Origin: Gammaproteobacteria bacterium
GTDB taxonomy: Bacteria > Pseudomonadota > Gammaproteobacteria > Eutrophobiales > Eutrophobiaceae
DNA: 41,047 nucleotides
Direction: 5' to 3'
NCBI GenBank assembly: GCA_016179185.1
Contig: JACORW010000023.1
Location: forward strand, 1 to 41,047
Under the pieces are notes generated by a model that was not told the DNA's origin, made no database searches, and saw only the letters and a list, made by a program, of their open reading frames with translations. The position numbers were made by a program, and so were the translations under genes. This document shows positions 32,808 through 40,686 of this stretch, piece by piece. Numbering within the stretch: the stretch's first letter is position 1; every line of letters begins with the position of its first letter.

Positions 32808-32951
32808 AAAGGCCATGGCGGAATATTGCTTCGTCCAATCCGGAAGGTCAGAGTGGCAGATCAGCGCGAGCGGCCGCTGCCGCCGGGCCGTCTGGCGGAA
32901 CTTACGCGTGGCGGATAGAATCCTTACTTGGTATTACTCTGGAGCAACCTG

Positions 32952-33212
32952 ATGACAACGATATCCGTAACCAGCAAGGGCCAGGTCACTATCCCCAAAC
33001 GGATCAGGCACGCACTTGGCATCACACCTGGAAGCAAGGTCGAGTTCGATCTTGCTCAGGGCGGTGCCCGCGTCAGATTGGTGAAAAAGCAGGTCCCGTC
33101 GCGCGTAGAGGAAGGCCCGGCAATTCTGGACTATACGGGCCCACGGATTCCCACGGCACGGATGCATGGGGGTTTCGCGATGAAGAAGGTGGCAGGGCGT
33201 GCGCGCCGTTGA
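32952..33212 (+). CDS. AbrB/MazE-type antitoxin (first VapB-like)
   Basis: An 86-residue protein with an N-terminal swapped-hairpin AbrB domain: SVTSKGQVTIPKRIRHALGITPGSKVEF. The C-terminal tail is basic (MKKVAGRARR) and would wrap the toxin. A GGAG lies eight bases before the ATG at 32952. The end overlaps the toxin gene by 14 bases. AbrB-type antitoxins bind their own promoter and neutralise the PIN toxin. The upstream TCCTTAC resembles the operator half-site of the second module. Confidence 0.9.
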   Translation: MTTISVTSKGQVTIPKRIRHALGITPGSKVEFDLAQGGARVRLVKKQVPSRVEEGPAILDYTGPRIPTARMHGGFAMKKVAGRARR

Positions 33213-33600
33213 TACAAACATACTCGCCCGCTACTACCTGCGGGACGACCCGGCGCAGGCTCGTCTCGCCGAAAAGCTCCTCGCCGCCGGCGGCGTGTTC
33301 GTTCCCAAAACTGTCTTGCTTGAGCTCGAGTGGGTACTGCGCTCAGTGGCCGAGCAGCCAGCGGGAAAGGTAGCGGACTGCCTTGCGCACCTGATCGCCC
33401 TGCCAGAAGTCACGATCGAGGATCATGGGCAGGTGGAAGTCGCATTGCGTCATTGCCGGGAGGGTGCCGACTTTGCTGACGCGCTGCATCACGCGGCAAG
33501 CCATGCATGCAGCGAAGTCCTTACGTTCGACGACCGGCGTTACGTGCGCCGGGCGGCAAAGCTGAAGTTCAAGCCACCCGTCCGGTTGTTGGTGGATTAA
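33199..33600 (+). CDS. PIN-domain toxin (first VapC-like)
   Basis: A 133-residue PIN-domain ribonuclease. The metal-binding acids are visible: the Asp of RAVDTNILARYY near the N-terminus, the Glu of LLELEWVLR, the Asp of DFADALHHAASHA and the Asp of LTFDDRRYVRRA. VapC-type toxins cleave tRNA or rRNA to stop translation. The start is a GTG at 33199 inside the antitoxin gene, so translation is coupled. The gene is complete. Together with 32952-33212 it forms an intact type II module. Confidence 0.93.
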   Translation: MRAVDTNILARYYLRDDPAQARLAEKLLAAGGVFVPKTVLLELEWVLRSVAEQPAGKVADCLAHLIALPEVTIEDHGQVEVALRHCREGADFADALHHAASHACSEVLTFDDRRYVRRAAKLKFKPPVRLLVD

Positions 33601-33977: not shown

Positions 33978-34214
33978 ATGACTGCGACACTCACCAGCAA
34001 AGGTCAGGTAACGGTTCCAAAAAAGATCCGGGAAATTCTGAAGTTGCGGCCGGGTGACCGGCTGGACTTTCTTGTGGAGACCGATGGCACCGTCCGCATC
34101 GCGCCGGTCACCGCTTCGGTGAAAGACCTCAAGGGTATCGTGCCGAAGCCGTCAAAATCTCTGTCCCTTGAGGAAATGGACCGGGCCATCGCGGCAGGCG
34201 CTGCGAAGCGATGA
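33978..34214 (+). CDS. AbrB/MazE-type antitoxin (second VapB-like)
   Basis: A 78-residue protein with the AbrB domain ATLTSKGQVTVPKKIREILKLRPGDRLDF, followed by a tail with LSLEEMDRAIAAGAAKR. The sequence is similar to, but clearly distinct from, the first antitoxin 1 kb upstream, so cross-talk cannot be assumed. AAGGA lies close before the ATG, within the putative operator. Its last four bases overlap the toxin start (ATGA). Confidence 0.93.
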   Translation: MTATLTSKGQVTVPKKIREILKLRPGDRLDFLVETDGTVRIAPVTASVKDLKGIVPKPSKSLSLEEMDRAIAAGAAKR

Positions 34215-34609
34215 TCGGTCTTGATACGAACGTGCTGGTGCGGTACATCGTCCGCGACGATGCGAAGCAGACAGCAGCGGCGACGCGATTGATCGAATCG
34301 CAGTGCACGGCAGAAACACCGGGATTCGTATCGCAACTGGTATTGGCGGAATTGTTCTGGGTTCTCTCGCGCGGATACGAATATCCAAAATCCGTGCGCG
34401 TGGAGGTCTTTACGAAATTACTGGGGTCGGCCGAACTTGAAGTGGAAGACGCAGCCGACGCATGGGTGGCACTGAGAGCATTTGCGGCTGGCCCAGCGGA
34501 TTTTGCGGATTTGTTGATTGGACTGCGAGGCCGTTCCGCGGGGTGCGAAACCATCTTCACTTTCGACAAAAGCGCGGTGAAATCCGGCTTTCACACTCTT
34601 CTGCCCTGA
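34211..34609 (+). CDS. PIN-domain toxin (second VapC-like)
   Basis: A 132-residue PIN-domain ribonuclease with MIGLDTNVLVRYIVRDD, LVLAELFWVLSRGYEYPK, DFADLLIGLRGRSAG and TFDKSAVKSGFHTL. These supply the expected Asp/Glu metal ligands. Its length and motifs are those of VapC toxins. It starts with ATG overlapping the antitoxin stop. It differs from the first toxin in most positions, so the two modules are unlikely to be a recent duplication. Confidence 0.93.
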   Translation: MIGLDTNVLVRYIVRDDAKQTAAATRLIESQCTAETPGFVSQLVLAELFWVLSRGYEYPKSVRVEVFTKLLGSAELEVEDAADAWVALRAFAAGPADFADLLIGLRGRSAGCETIFTFDKSAVKSGFHTLLP

Positions 34610-34655: not shown

Positions 34656-35348
34656 CTAACCGCTCTTCCGGCGCAGGTGTTCCGGGATCTGCTTCCGCAT
34701 GACGGGATAGAACTGGACAAATGTGCCGTCGAAGACGCCCTGCCTGAGGTGGCACTGCACGCACGGATTGCCCGGGGGCAAGGCCGGCGCTTCGCTGTCG
34801 TCCTTTGCGAACGGATAAAACGCCCGCCCATCCTCGAACAGGCCCTTGTCAATGAGATGGATCTCGAATGAATCGAGATCGCCCTGGGTCAGCCCGGACT
34901 CCTCGCCTTCGTTGCGCTGCGTGGCATAAAAAGACAGCAGAAACATCGTCCCATCCGCGTACGCGCCGTGTTCCTGGAAGTATGCATACGCAGAGGGCTC
35001 CATGGAAACCACCTGGAACATGCCCGGCCGCTCCGGATCGAACTCACCGGCGTTGTATCCCAGGCCCACGGATGCGCCCATGAACACCCACCGATCCGGG
35101 TCCTGCGGGCGCAGCAACCGGCCCGAGTCCGAAAACCTGGCCGCGTGAAGACCGGCGGCCGTTGACCCGGCCGCGGCGCGTTGTGCCCCCGCCTCATCGT
35201 TGCTCCGATCCGGCGCCAGATGCGCCGCCGCCCTTGCCAGGCTGGCAGGGTTTCGCGCCAAGTAGAATGCGGCCACCCCAAGCGAGACGGCTGCTACCGC
35301 CGCAACAGTCACCAGAATCCCGCGTCTTCCCGTTCCCGGCATCGGCAT
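34656..35348 (-). CDS. Membrane-anchored cytochrome P460-like protein
   Basis: A 230-residue protein with an N-terminal transmembrane segment (about 10-31) and a periplasmic domain like cytochrome P460: DRWVFMGASVGLGYN, FQVVSMEPSAYAYFQEHGAYADGTMFLLSFY and the single haem c site CVQCH (C196, C199, H200). It ends FDGTFVQFYPVMRKQIP. P460 cytochromes oxidise hydroxylamine or bind NO through a Lys-crosslinked haem. Many relatives have no known substrate, and I cannot locate the cross-linking lysine with confidence. It diverges from the DUF692 gene by about 60 bp, which may be coincidence or a shared control region. Confidence 0.8.
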   Translation of the reverse strand: MPMPGTGRRGILVTVAAVAAVSLGVAAFYLARNPASLARAAAHLAPDRSNDEAGAQRAAAGSTAAGLHAARFSDSGRLLRPQDPDRWVFMGASVGLGYNAGEFDPERPGMFQVVSMEPSAYAYFQEHGAYADGTMFLLSFYATQRNEGEESGLTQGDLDSFEIHLIDKGLFEDGRAFYPFAKDDSEAPALPPGNPCVQCHLRQGVFDGTFVQFYPVMRKQIPEHLRRKSG

Positions 35349-35410: not shown

Positions 35411-36403
35411 ATGGCCGTCCGCGAGCAAATCGTTGACGGTGACATTGCCCCGGGAGTTGGCGAGAATCTGGTGCATGTGCAGGCATTGCATCAGGGCAGG
35501 TACGGTTTCATGGGCGCGCAGATAGAAGCACTGCCCGTGCTCGGCGTGGGCGCGAGCCTGAGCCTGTCCGCGCAGCCGGATCCGGTGGCGCTGGTGCAAG
35601 CCGCCGGCGGGCCGAGTTTTGTGGAATACGCCGGGCGCGCCGACGTGGAGGACGTGCGCGCCGAAGTCGATCGCATCCGTGCCGCGGGAACGCCGGTCCT
35701 GTTCCATCCCTCGTACATCAACTTCTGCGGCACATTCCCGAACTCGCGCGCGTGGCTCGAGGCCACGGCGCGGCACATCGCCGCCGTGGGATCGCCGTGG
35801 TTCGCCCAGGACTGCGCCTACTGTTTCTGGCAGGAAGGGCCGGGCTATTCGACGCAACTCGGGTATTTCATCCCCACGATCCTGAATGAGGCCTCACTGC
35901 GGCGCGCCATCGAACGGGTGCGCGAGGTAAAGGCTCAGGTACCGGTCGTTGTGGCAATCGAGCCGCCGCCGATGGCGTTTGCCGTCGGCAAGATGCCGCT
36001 GTTCAGGTTTTTCGGCACGGTCGCGCGCGAGGCGGACTGCGCCATCCTGCTGGACATGGGCCACCTGGTGTCCTACGAGATGGCGAGTGGCTGCCGCGTC
36101 CGCGACACGCTGGCGGAGTTGCCGCGCGAGCGGGTCATCGAGGTGCACATCGCCGGCGGGCGGCTGGAACCGGGCACTTCCGGCCCGATCTACATAGACG
36201 CCCACGAACGCGCGATCCTCGATCCGACCTGGCGCATGCTGGAGAACATGCTGCCGGAACTGCCGGCGGTACGAGCCGTATGCTTCGAGTGTGAAGGCGC
36301 ATCGGAGGAAACCGTGCTGACCACCCTGCGCCGCGTGCGCAGCATCGTGCGCGGGCGCAGCGCCAATCCCGCGCTGGTGGCGCGCGCCGGGGCGGTCAAT
36401 TGA
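35411..36403 (+). CDS. DUF692-family (MNIO) multinuclear iron enzyme
   Basis: A 330-residue TIM-barrel protein resembling the DUF692/MNIO family, such as MbnB and TglH, which use two or three iron ions to modify cysteine or other residues of peptides. Candidate metal ligands fall in the expected order: H99 (LFHPSYINF), E184 (AIEPPP), D215 and H218 (LLDMGHLV), H246 (EVHIAGG), D263 and H265 (YIDAHERAI) and E293 (FECEGA). It is a divergent member, since the usual N-terminal GxGLR motif is replaced by GVGASLSL. The start is uncertain: the ATG at 35411 is used, but the ATG at 35510 would also keep the barrel. The next gene overlaps by four bases. No precursor peptide was recognised. Confidence 0.78.
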   Translation: MAVREQIVDGDIAPGVGENLVHVQALHQGRYGFMGAQIEALPVLGVGASLSLSAQPDPVALVQAAGGPSFVEYAGRADVEDVRAEVDRIRAAGTPVLFHPSYINFCGTFPNSRAWLEATARHIAAVGSPWFAQDCAYCFWQEGPGYSTQLGYFIPTILNEASLRRAIERVREVKAQVPVVVAIEPPPMAFAVGKMPLFRFFGTVAREADCAILLDMGHLVSYEMASGCRVRDTLAELPRERVIEVHIAGGRLEPGTSGPIYIDAHERAILDPTWRMLENMLPELPAVRAVCFECEGASEETVLTTLRRVRSIVRGRSANPALVARAGAVN

Positions 36404-37323
36404 GTTTCCCGGAACAGGAACGCGCGCTGTTCGACCTGCTGTTCGACCGCCCGCTGCGGGACCGATTCTGCCGCGACCCTGTCCACGCACTGTCCGGTTA
36501 CGATCTCGACGCCGAAGAGCGCAGGGATTTCACCGTAATCCGGCCGGATGCCCTCGCACTGGACGCGTACCTGCGCGCAGATTTTATTTTGTCGCATCTG
36601 TGTCGGGCCTTTCCCCTCGCGTTCAGCATCGCCTCGTCGTTAGCCGCCGGACTGGACCTGTTGCGGGGGCTGATTGACACGCGGACCATGCGCACGCCGC
36701 CGGACGACCGGCCGGCGACGTTCGGCACGCGCCTGCGGGAGAAAATGTCCACCGAGGTATTCACGTCCGACCGAGAGAAGGCGGCCGTGCTCGCCATTGT
36801 CGAGGCCGAACTGGGCATGGCGATGACTGCCGGCGCTTTGCGTCGAAGCATGGCGGCGGGTACCCCGGTGCCGCCGCCCGCGCCAGTCGCACCGGGTGCG
36901 GACTGGAAACTGCGGCCGCTGCAATTGGCAACCTTTGTCAGTGCCACCGTGTTGCCGCAGTCGTACCCGGCCTTGAAACAAGCGCTCCGGCCGGCCGGGG
37001 ATTCAGAGCTCTGGGCGCAACTGAGCAGGAATCCCCTGCCCGCCTCGGTTCGCGCGAGCACCCTGGAAAAGGAGGATCCGCGCGTGTTGCTGGCGCGGGC
37101 GCGGGCAAGCCGTCCTTCCGCTTGCGATGTGGATGTTAATCATGCAACCGTGGAGCTCAGCGAGGGTTTCGCGCCGCTGTTCCAGCACCTGGACGGGAGG
37201 ACCAGTGCCGGGGAGATCCTCGCGCAGATGCGCCGCGTCGGCACGCCGGAGGCACTGCTCCAGGGAATCGAGGCCGCGTTCCGGCAGTTGCTGGATGCGG
37301 GTATGTTGAAGGTTGGAAGGTGA
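36400..37323 (+). CDS. MNIO partner protein with PqqD-like C-terminus
   Basis: A 307-residue protein starting at a TTG that overlaps the DUF692 stop (TTGA), so the two are translationally coupled. The N-terminal part (LFDLLFDRPLRDRFCRDP, then LSGYDLDAEERRDF) resembles helical partner proteins found beside DUF692 enzymes. A proline-rich linker (VPPPAPVAPG) follows. The last ~70 residues (VELSEGFAPLFQHLDGRTSA, then EILAQM, then LLDAGMLKVG) look like a PqqD/RRE winged-helix domain. RRE domains bind leader peptides in RiPP pathways. This supports, without proving, a peptide-modification role for the pair. A four-base overlap and no plausible later start support the TTG. Confidence 0.7.
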   Translation: MSFPEQERALFDLLFDRPLRDRFCRDPVHALSGYDLDAEERRDFTVIRPDALALDAYLRADFILSHLCRAFPLAFSIASSLAAGLDLLRGLIDTRTMRTPPDDRPATFGTRLREKMSTEVFTSDREKAAVLAIVEAELGMAMTAGALRRSMAAGTPVPPPAPVAPGADWKLRPLQLATFVSATVLPQSYPALKQALRPAGDSELWAQLSRNPLPASVRASTLEKEDPRVLLARARASRPSACDVDVNHATVELSEGFAPLFQHLDGRTSAGEILAQMRRVGTPEALLQGIEAAFRQLLDAGMLKVGR

Positions 37324-37473: not shown

Positions 37474-40400
37474 ATGCACATGCTCAGATCGTCATCGCTG
37501 GCAAAGATCACCGCTCCCAGCTACACGAGCGTCTATCCCCGGGAGCGGCTCTTCAAGATACTGGATCGGGCCCTGGACCGGACCGCGGTATGGGTCATGG
37601 GGCCGCCGGGTTCCGGCAAGACCTGCCTGGTCAGCAGTTATCTGCGTGCACGCGGTCTGCGCGATCACTGGTACCAGGTAAATGACAGTGACGCTGATAT
37701 CGCCACGTTCTTTTTTTACATGCGTCTTGCCGTACCGCGAGTGACTCCCCGGCGCGGAACCCCGCTTCCCCTGTTGACGCCGGAATACCTGCGCGGTGTT
37801 CTGGCGTTCACCCGGCGCTACTGCCAGAACCTGTTTCAGCGGCTCAAACCGCCCTTTGCCCTGGTGTTCGATAACTACCAGGAAGTTCCCGACACCGCCG
37901 CTTTTCACGAGGTCGTTTGCGCGGGCGTGGGCGAATTGCCGCCCGGCGCCAAAGTGATTTTCATCAGCCGCAAGGAACCCCCGCCGGCACTGGCGCGGCT
38001 GCGCGCCAACGAGGTCATGGCCACCATCGGCTGGAATGAATTGCAGCTTACTGCGGAGGAAGCGCAGGGAATCGTGACGCAACGAGGCAAGGACGAACAA
38101 TTGCGCGATCACTGTCGCGAACTTCTGAACCGGACCCAGGGCTGGGTCGCCGGACTGATCCTGCTGTTGGAACAGTCCCGGCTCGAAGGCGTGGCCGTAC
38201 AGAGCCTGTACGATTACATCCCCGAAGAAATCTTCGATTACTTCGCCGGCGAGATTTTTCTGAAGACGGATGAGTCCACGAAAAACGTCCTCCTGAAGAC
38301 GAGCTTTCTGCCCAGCATGACGAAAACGATGGCCGAAGAGCTGAGCGGGGAAACGCGCGCCGGACAGATCCTTGCCGAAATGAGCAGAAACAACAATTTC
38401 ATTACCCGCTTCCTGCAAACCGAACCGGTGTTCCAGTTCCACCCCCTGTTCCGGCAGTTTTTGCAGGAGCACATCCGCAAGGTCATGACGGCCGAAGACA
38501 TGGCAGGCCTGCGCGGCAAGGCTGCCTCCCTTCTGGAAGAGCACGGCATGATCGAAGATGCCATCAAACTCCTGCTGGAAGCCGAGAACTGGGATGACCT
38601 CACCGCCAGCATCCTCAAGTGGGCGCCGCTCCTGGTCGAGCAGGGACGCATGCAGACCCTGGAGGAGCACCTGTTGCGCATACCGGCGCCGTTTCTCGAC
38701 CAGTTCCCCTGGCTTCAGTACTGGCTGGGGATCTGCCGCCAGCCCTTCAATCCGGCGGAAAGCCGCGCTTATCTGGAACGGGCATTCGCGATATTCCGTG
38801 CCCGCAAGGACGCCATCGGGACCTTCCTGTCGTGGCGTGAAACCGGCATTTCCATTCTGGCGCATGAATCCGGGATCTACCGGGAACTCGATCCATGGAT
38901 CGCAACGCTGGATGAATTGATGCGTGAATTCCCCGAGTTTCCGTCGCCGGAAATTCATGATCGCGTGGCCACCTCCATGTTCGTCGCCCTGACGATGCGG
39001 ATGCCACAGCACCCGATGATCGAGGCGTGGGAAAAACGCGCCTTGGCCATCTTCCGCAACAGCACCAACCCGAAAATCCAGGCCGAGATCGGCGCCTACC
39101 TGGCGCTCTACTACCTGATGTCGGGTAATTCTCCGGGCGCGGAAGCGGAGGTCAGTGGCCTGCGCACGCTGACCCAGTTGCGCGGGGCGCCGCCCATCGC
39201 CCTGATCCTCGGGCGTGCCGCGGAAGCCCTGTTTCACTGGCGGGTCGGCCAGTTCGAGGAATGTCTTGAGGCGGTCTCCAAGGGCCTGCTGGTCGCCGGC
39301 AACACCGGCGTGCATCTGTGGGACTGGCTGTTGCTCGGCCAGGGACTGAGCAGCGCGCTTTCGCTGGGCGATCTGGAAAAGGCGAAGGAGTTTTTACGGG
39401 ACATGGCGCCGGAAGAATCACACCGGCTGGAGGTCTGTTATTACAAATACCTGGCGTCCTGGGAAGCCTATCTTCAGGGCAATCACGCGCTGGCCCTGCA
39501 ACATGCCGAAACCAGCCTGACCGCCGCGACCGAAATCGGCGTCCCGTATTTCGAGGGTCTGACACGCCTTGCGCTGGCCATCGTAAAGCAGGCCCTGCAT
39601 GACACCGTTCAGGCCGACCGGCTTGTCGAAGAGGCATTGCAGATCAGCGCGCGCATCAAAAGCACAATCCTCGAGTTCATGTGCCTGTTATATCAATCTC
39701 GGTTTGCCTTCGATGCAGGAAAGGACAGCGAGGCATTGGCAGCGCTGCGCCAGGCCATGGCCATCGGCAAGACCAATGATTATCTGAATTTTTCCTGGTG
39801 GCTGCCCGACACCATGTCCTGCCTGTGCGCGCGGGCACTGGCACACAACATCGAAGCCGAATATGTCAGGAAACTGATCACCAGGCGCAGGCTGCAGCCG
39901 GACGCCTCGGTGCAGGAAACGGAGAACTGGCCATGGGAGATAAAGATCTACAGCCTGGGACGATTCGAGATCTTCAGGAACGGGTCGCGCATCACATTCA
40001 CCGGAAAAACGCAGAAGAAACCCCTGGAGCTGCTGAAATATGTGCTCGCCTTCGGCGGCCGCGACGTAGCGGAGGAAAAAATAACGCACGCTCTGTGGCC
40101 GGATGCTGAAGGCGATGCCGCGCATCAGTCCTTTTCCAGCGCATTGCATCGCCTGCGCAAATTACTGGGAAGCGACAAGGCATTGCGGCTTATGGATGGC
40201 AAGCTGAATCTGGATCCGGCGTGTTGCTGGGTTGACTATTGGGCCTTCGATCGGTTCCTGGATCTCGGCAGGGAAGCCGCGCGCTCCGGCGCTGCGAGCC
40301 TGACGGAGGGACAGCAGCAGGTACGCCAGGCCATGGCGCTCTATGGAGGTTCGTTCTTGCCCGGGGACACCGAGGCGCAATGGAGCGTCAAGACCCGCGA

Positions 40401-40686
40401 TCGCCTGCGCCACAAATTCATCCAGTACGTGGGACGGCTGGCGGAAGGTTTTGAAAAGTCCAATGACTGGAAGTCCGGAGCGGAGCTCTACAAAAAGGCG
40501 CTGGAGGCGGACAATCTCGCGGAAGAATTTTACCGCGGACTGATGCGCTGCCATCTACACCTGAACATGAAGGCCGAGGGGCTGGCCATCTTCCAGCGCT
40601 GCAAGACACTGCTGTCCGTCGTGCTGGGCGCCAAACCCTCCGCCGAAACGGAGGCCGTGCACAAATCACTCTCCGCGCTGTCGTGA
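37474..40686 (+). CDS. STAND ATPase / BTAD (SARP-like) transcriptional regulator
   Basis: A 1070-residue signal-transduction ATPase. The P-loop is MGPPGSGKTCLVSSYL (GPPGSGKT at 43-50), the Walker B-like strand is FALVFDNYQEVPD, and MalT-like sensor segments follow (GWVAGLILLLEQSR, FQFHPLFRQFLQEHI). The middle (about 350-800) is TPR-like, for ligand or partner sensing. The C-terminus has an OmpR-type winged helix (about 820-910: KIYSLGRFEIFRNGSRITF, then TQKKPLELLKYVLAFGGRDV) and a bacterial transcriptional activation domain (about 920-1065). This layout is MalT-like at the N-terminus, but with a SARP-type DNA-binding end instead of LuxR. An alternative ATG lies two codons later. It stands 150 bp after the MNIO pair and could control it (inference). 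Confidence 0.9.
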   Translation: MHMLRSSSLAKITAPSYTSVYPRERLFKILDRALDRTAVWVMGPPGSGKTCLVSSYLRARGLRDHWYQVNDSDADIATFFFYMRLAVPRVTPRRGTPLPLLTPEYLRGVLAFTRRYCQNLFQRLKPPFALVFDNYQEVPDTAAFHEVVCAGVGELPPGAKVIFISRKEPPPALARLRANEVMATIGWNELQLTAEEAQGIVTQRGKDEQLRDHCRELLNRTQGWVAGLILLLEQSRLEGVAVQSLYDYIPEEIFDYFAGEIFLKTDESTKNVLLKTSFLPSMTKTMAEELSGETRAGQILAEMSRNNNFITRFLQTEPVFQFHPLFRQFLQEHIRKVMTAEDMAGLRGKAASLLEEHGMIEDAIKLLLEAENWDDLTASILKWAPLLVEQGRMQTLEEHLLRIPAPFLDQFPWLQYWLGICRQPFNPAESRAYLERAFAIFRARKDAIGTFLSWRETGISILAHESGIYRELDPWIATLDELMREFPEFPSPEIHDRVATSMFVALTMRMPQHPMIEAWEKRALAIFRNSTNPKIQAEIGAYLALYYLMSGNSPGAEAEVSGLRTLTQLRGAPPIALILGRAAEALFHWRVGQFEECLEAVSKGLLVAGNTGVHLWDWLLLGQGLSSALSLGDLEKAKEFLRDMAPEESHRLEVCYYKYLASWEAYLQGNHALALQHAETSLTAATEIGVPYFEGLTRLALAIVKQALHDTVQADRLVEEALQISARIKSTILEFMCLLYQSRFAFDAGKDSEALAALRQAMAIGKTNDYLNFSWWLPDTMSCLCARALAHNIEAEYVRKLITRRRLQPDASVQETENWPWEIKIYSLGRFEIFRNGSRITFTGKTQKKPLELLKYVLAFGGRDVAEEKITHALWPDAEGDAAHQSFSSALHRLRKLLGSDKALRLMDGKLNLDPACCWVDYWAFDRFLDLGREAARSGAASLTEGQQQVRQAMALYGGSFLPGDTEAQWSVKTRDRLRHKFIQYVGRLAEGFEKSNDWKSGAELYKKALEADNLAEEFYRGLMRCHLHLNMKAEGLAIFQRCKTLLSVVLGAKPSAETEAVHKSLSALS

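Follow-up and report, generated by a model that had tools for sequence, protein, structure and literature searches.

The two-gene locus and its products

The window analysed in this study is a whole contig of 41,047 nucleotides from a gammaproteobacterial draft genome (86% complete, 2.58 Mb). It contains two overlapping genes that encode an MNIO enzyme and a partner protein, with the following features:

35411..35509, forward strand: in-frame extension upstream of the enzyme gene, probably not part of the translated enzyme
35510..36403, forward strand: MNIO (DUF692, PF05114) enzyme with an HDE-class iron site, 297 aa, ATG start (from PF05114, orthologue alignments and the AF2 model)
35705..35707, forward strand: codon of H66, a site 1 ligand at the position of TglH H71, invariant in 26 orthologues
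35810..35812, forward strand: codon of D101, site 1, where His (TglH H107) is replaced by Asp, an invariant Asp in the orthologues
36062..36064, forward strand: codon of H185, site 3, where Asn (TglH N187) is replaced by His, an invariant His in the orthologues
36400..37323, forward strand: partner protein, 307 aa, TTG start, overlapping the enzyme stop by 4 nt (TTGA)
36406..36600, forward strand: N-terminal LigA/Os1348 (NHLP-clan)-like helical domain of the partner, residues 3-67
37075..37314, forward strand: C-terminal PqqD/RRE-like winged helix of the partner, residues 226-305

The reading frame of the enzyme is open from 35162, and a preliminary description of this DNA had placed the pair at 35411-37323. 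All orthologues share the N-terminus MxxxIxxLPTLGVGASLSLS and begin at the residue encoded by the ATG at 35510, so this codon was taken as the start of a 297-aa protein. When the longer frame was used as query, no orthologue alignment extended upstream of residue 32-34, and a start at 35411 was rejected because homologues lack any extension reaching that far. Thus, the end at 37323 and the two-gene content of the earlier description stand, and the enzyme start has to be moved to 35510.

The enzyme belongs to the MNIO superfamily, as had been proposed. It matches PF05114 with 87.6 bits (curated cut-off 25), and a Foldseek search with its AF2 model (pLDDT 88) gave TglH as the best PDB match (8hi7_B, E 1.3e-14). 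The top matches (8hi7, 8hci, 3bww, 7dz9, 7fc0 and 7tcr) indicate a TIM barrel like that of TglH and MbnB, the leading folds being TglH, HsMNIO (3bww) and MbnB, with TIM-barrel isomerases next. All cut-offs of the named MNIO subfamily models were missed by far, including those of ApyH (88 bits, cut-off 400; the best NCBIfam match), BufB (68 bits, cut-off 310), HvfB (53 bits, cut-off 360), MbnB (23 bits, cut-off 325) and ChrH (22 bits, cut-off 600), which agrees with the previous view that this enzyme is divergent. No other MNIO was found in the window's draft genome.

The partner was modelled by AF2 with 29 orthologues (pLDDT 94.3, pTM 0.91), and residues 3-152 are helical in the model. Its N-terminal domain was matched by NF038399 in 22 of the 29 orthologues and by LigA in 11, with weak E-values, and it also matched the partner of an MNIO in locus L094 (search E 5.5e-4, hhalign E 2.3e-6). 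In that locus (L094:1201-3193, minus strand), a 199-aa membrane protein with a Cys/Gly-rich tail is followed by a canonical MNIO and the 176-aa partner. The C-terminus of the window partner was predicted with high confidence to have the order beta-beta-alpha-beta-alpha-alpha-beta, a PqqD-like winged helix. Matches to PqqD (best E 3.9e-5) and to ApyI (best E 8.7e-6, beginning at about residue 163) were obtained for some orthologues, those to ApyI reaching at most 25 of the 200 bits required. The only RiPP-related match of the partner in a Foldseek search of the PDB was the RRE of PbtF (8t19_A, probability 0.60, E 1.7), and the modelled fold is therefore described as PqqD/RRE-like but divergent, with weak Foldseek similarity. 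The winged helix suggested for this end of the protein is thus borne out by the model, and profile searches showed that the partner is not a DUF2063 protein.

Two other readings of the partner were rejected. The resemblance of its N-terminal domain to Os1348 and Frankia peptides could suggest a fused precursor; however, the domain is LigA-like, it occurs in MNIO partners such as that of L094, and neither a core peptide nor a conserved Cys follows it. Members of the Os1348 family elsewhere in the same genome were limited to weak matches at chance level. The seemingly invariant Cys242 was dismissed as a modification target, since L080 and L085 carry another residue there.

Iron-site ligands and related enzymes

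The iron ligands of TglH are H71, H107, E151, D184, H216 and E258, and its third iron is bound by D184, N187, D229 and H231 (PMC10880893). The aligned residues of the enzyme are H66, D101 and E151 (site 1), D182, H213 and E260, and H185, D230 and H232 (site 3), all of them invariant in 26 sequences. The preliminary description held that all likely iron ligands are present in a barrel departing from usual DUF692 motifs. Indeed, all nine positions are occupied and no ligand is lost on alignment, but the canonical set itself is absent: two invariant residues are swapped, which turns the His-His-Glu of site 1 into His-Asp-Glu and the Asn-Asp-His of site 3 into His-Asp-His. Written as one string, the set is HDEDHHDH in all orthologues checked and in two plasmid-borne enzymes (L126 and L127), and HHEDNHDH in 78 of 78 other MNIOs sampled, which have His at the position of D101 and Asn at that of H185; this comparison set consisted of 74 proteobacterial sequences (a few rows being the same gene twice) and L128-L131. 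In the phylogenetic tree, the nine HDE-type rows were separated from the rest by a branch with support 100/98, although the clade includes long branches and its exact extent is less sure than the residue pattern.

The enzyme PbsC, which converts Phe to ortho-Tyr as a Phe ortho-hydroxylase (PMC12257519), has the AlphaFold 3-predicted ligands His97, Asp133 and Glu178, Asp213, His247 and Glu290, and His216, Asp260 and His262 (PMC12257519). Compared with this published prediction, and not by sequence, the residue types of our enzyme are the same and the spacing is closely similar, with D101 corresponding to Asp133 and H185 to His216. In MbnB, the two-His iron (site 1) holds the thiolate of the substrate Cys (PMC13419390), and it is at this site that the His to Asp change falls.

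The two closest plasmid relatives of the enzyme both carry the HDE set. The std-like cluster around one of them (L127:5837-13360, Piscinibacter gummiphilus plasmid) encodes a carbamoyltransferase-YcaO fusion and TfuA; its 57-aa ORF lacks Cys and ends in SNKARQKPW, with an SNK motif also seen in SNKEWQE of StdA (PMC13174530). In the std pathway, homocitrulline is hydroxylated by the MNIO. The Piscinibacter cluster, which also encodes a MoeB-like protein beside the MNIO, appears to be a betaproteobacterial relative of the Streptomyces pathway. The other relative (L126:6498-11566, Streptomyces europaeiscabiei plasmid) is located near a 53-aa ORF with four FPFR repeats. Its MNIO is fused to approximately 230 extra residues and is accompanied by a YcaO-nitroreductase protein and LuxE/LuxC homologues; the repeats of the small ORF read (D/E)FPFR, and the cluster may make an uncharacterised RiPP with an aromatic core.

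A non-Cys substrate is likely for the enzyme, since its swapped set is that predicted for PbsC and is also found in the enzyme of the std-like cluster. The association of the HDE set with substrates other than Cys is a good lead but not proof: it comes from PbsC, the one characterised enzyme (its ligands predicted by AlphaFold 3), from L127, assigned by synteny, and from L126, where a neighbouring ORF prompted the guess. Scoring of single-residue variants of our enzyme with the ApyH model gave +4.7 bits for D101H and -4.6 bits for H185N, whereas the BufB model gained from both changes. ApyH, which acts on Asp, therefore seems intermediate, with His at the position of D101 and His at site 3. 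Since ApyH is a non-Cys enzyme with an apparent His at the former position, the rule is not universal. A search for ApyH in Burkholderiaceae genomes found none.

Known MNIO systems resemble the pair to different degrees. PbsCD/BipEF (biphenomycin) share, besides the predicted ligands, an RRE partner, whose gene follows the MNIO gene in bip; unlike our pair of only two genes, they are part of multi-enzyme clusters with precursor peptides, an arginase and a B12-rSAM. Similarly, the StdDE-like enzyme of Piscinibacter has an RRE-type partner gene beside it, but belongs to a full cluster with YcaO-TfuA, carbamoyltransferase and precursor, its partner has no detectable kinship to the window partner, and the two enzymes share 28% identity. 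ApyHI (aminopyruvatide; C-terminal Asp) is related through the best profile match of the enzyme and the C-terminal half of the partner in several orthologues, with both cut-offs (400 and 200 bits) far from reached; the apy cluster contains a precursor, a P450, an rSAM and a methyltransferase that the pair lacks. The Cys-acting systems TglHI, MbnBC, BufBC and HvfBC have the barrel, the overall ligand geometry and the enzyme-partner gene pair in common with it, but differ in their canonical HHE/NDH set, in linked and mostly Cys-rich precursors, and in DUF2063 or other partners. Finally, the window partner falls within the broad class of PME-type 2 partners (Antoine et al. 2025, PMC12452194), which also combine an alpha-helical N-domain with an RRE-like domain and are encoded directly after the MNIO; it differs in being 307 aa long, with a long central helical region, a LigA/Os1348-like N-terminus and no recognisable precursor.

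Distribution, gene context and search for a linked precursor

In a species-level genome collection, we identified the pair in 31 further loci, all from Gammaproteobacteria: the window's own family (some members labelled Thiotrichaceae), Moraxellaceae (including the cultured Agitococcus lubricus DSM 5822), Methylococcaceae, Immundisolibacteraceae and Pseudomonadales. It is rare, with four strong matches of the partner across 369 genomes of the class. Viral contigs lacked the pair, and plasmids contained neither a close enzyme nor a partner. The enzyme gene precedes the partner gene in 31 of 31 loci, the junction reading ATGA in most orthologues, and the pairwise distances of the two proteins are correlated (r = 0.90), with a mean of 0.35 for the enzyme and 0.51 for the less conserved partner. 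The proposed coupling of the two genes is supported.

The enzyme tree follows taxonomy (Moraxellaceae grouped together with support 98/91, and the window sequence joined that of its genus mate), and the gene contexts are widely different. In one clade (11-13 loci), the pair is located between tgt and yajC-secDF, a distance that is mostly 48-149 bp in relatives without the pair; in L061 and L068, it is upstream of queA. Queuosine and Sec genes were rejected as functional partners, this being a matter of location only, as other loci lack them. In one genome of the window's family (L051, G020:C25), all that is left is an enzyme copy decayed by internal stops, while a genus mate (G006) retains an intact pair, and the system is therefore dispensable. 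The pair is a two-gene unit that has been kept, lost and relocated without a third gene.

Several neighbours in the window were also considered. Two tandem pairs of MazE/AbrB-type antitoxin and PIN-domain toxin (32928-33600 and 33978-34609) lie just upstream, followed by a cytochrome P460-family protein (34656-35348, minus strand, CxxCH near the C-terminus) divergent from the enzyme, and a MalT-like ATPase/TPR regulator with a BTAD domain (1070 aa, 37474-40686) lies directly downstream. All were rejected as partners because they are not common to the other loci. Zinc-type alcohol dehydrogenases adjoin the pair in unrelated genomes (upstream in L063 and L087, downstream in L089 and L093), and MsrB and glutathione peroxidase are encoded upstream of it in some Moraxellaceae loci; either association may be due to chance.

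Few sources of new peptide chemistry are growing as fast as the MNIOs, and to our knowledge almost all work on them relies on finding the precursor adjacent to the enzyme. We scanned 32 loci in six frames from -4 to +6 kb, considering ORFs from 22 aa with BLAST at E 0.01, a design that a very short or fast-evolving peptide may escape. Beyond housekeeping synteny, no conserved small gene, Cys-rich or other, was found by the pair in the 32 loci; nor did they contain biphenomycin-like neighbours (precursor, arginase, B12-rSAM) or a conserved linked precursor gene of the kind by which a RiPP cluster is recognised. As a positive control, the same scan of 74 canonical MNIOs picked up small proteins rich in Cys, in several groups and just upstream of the enzyme, as well as DUF2063-type partners and a DoxX-sized gene. 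The preliminary description had reported no Cys-rich short ORF nearby and had considered that the substrate may be remote or a larger protein, and both points are supported. The missing Cys-rich ORF is no puzzle by itself, because the ligand set is that of non-Cys MNIOs.

That a dedicated precursor is linked to the pair but too short or variable for such scans is quite improbable. RiPP precursors can be shorter than 40 aa, which leaves some room given the size floor of 22 aa and the reliance on BLAST similarity, and in L085 several small ORFs precede the pair and an ABC transporter follows it. However, the insert between tgt and yajC in one clade consists of the pair itself and short intergenic gaps, no kind of small ORF is shared between the different contexts, and precursors of canonical MNIOs were found by the same scan.

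Proposed function of the pair

Taken together, we consider it probable that the two genes make up an HDE-class MNIO-RRE oxidase working in trans, with a residue other than Cys as its target. Enzyme and partner would form a heterodimeric MNIO-superfamily oxidase that depends on iron and O2. In it, the RRE-like C-domain of the partner would bind a segment of the substrate and bring this segment within reach of the tri- or di-iron barrel. The enzyme may then hydroxylate, or oxidise in some other way, a residue other than Cys, such as an aromatic one; non-Cys oxidation is the most likely chemistry because sites 1 and 3 are as in PbsC-type hydroxylases. The substrate would be encoded elsewhere, either as a host protein already in the genome or as a distant, unlinked precursor. 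No substrate was found for the pair, and a RiPP system, with a cleaved peptide product, may be one candidate reading beside a host-protein modifier. The unit has been inherited vertically for a long time with no linked substrate, and the enzyme is highly conserved; both points favour a host protein, or a conserved precursor encoded at an unlinked site, over a dedicated cluster peptide.

A bolder and rather doubtful version is that the pair is a maintained protein-modification device and not a natural-product system, with the MNIO docking onto a conserved host protein via the RRE partner and hydroxylating a residue other than Cys; if true, it would provide the first case of a cellular housekeeping protein as an MNIO substrate. 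An enzyme-partner pair has long been kept across several gammaproteobacterial lineages without an adjacent precursor, and the two-residue change of the iron site (His to Asp and Asn to His), tied to non-Cys enzymes, offers a readable and testable sequence rule.

It is unlikely that this is an ordinary Cys-modifying pair, such as one for bufferin- or oxazolin-like metallophore maturation, with a Cys-rich precursor elsewhere in the genome. Cys is the target of most MNIOs, stand-alone bufferin precursor genes are known, and many relatives contain a second, canonical MNIO. Nevertheless, the ligands differ from those of all 78 canonical MNIOs sampled, precisely where the Cys thiolate is bound, the partner is of a non-DUF2063 type, the window's genome has this MNIO alone, and the precursor stays adjacent in canonical relatives.

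It is very unlikely that the oxidase function has been lost and that the pair instead serves, for example, in regulation, acts as a decoy, or uses an AP-endonuclease/isomerase-like barrel for the chemistry of sugars or cofactors: isomerases do come next among the fold matches and another cluster is known to contain PesX, an MNIO-like protein without catalytic activity, but all nine ligand positions hold invariant metal-binding residues, the enzyme is more conserved than its partner, and PbsC is active with the same predicted ligand set.
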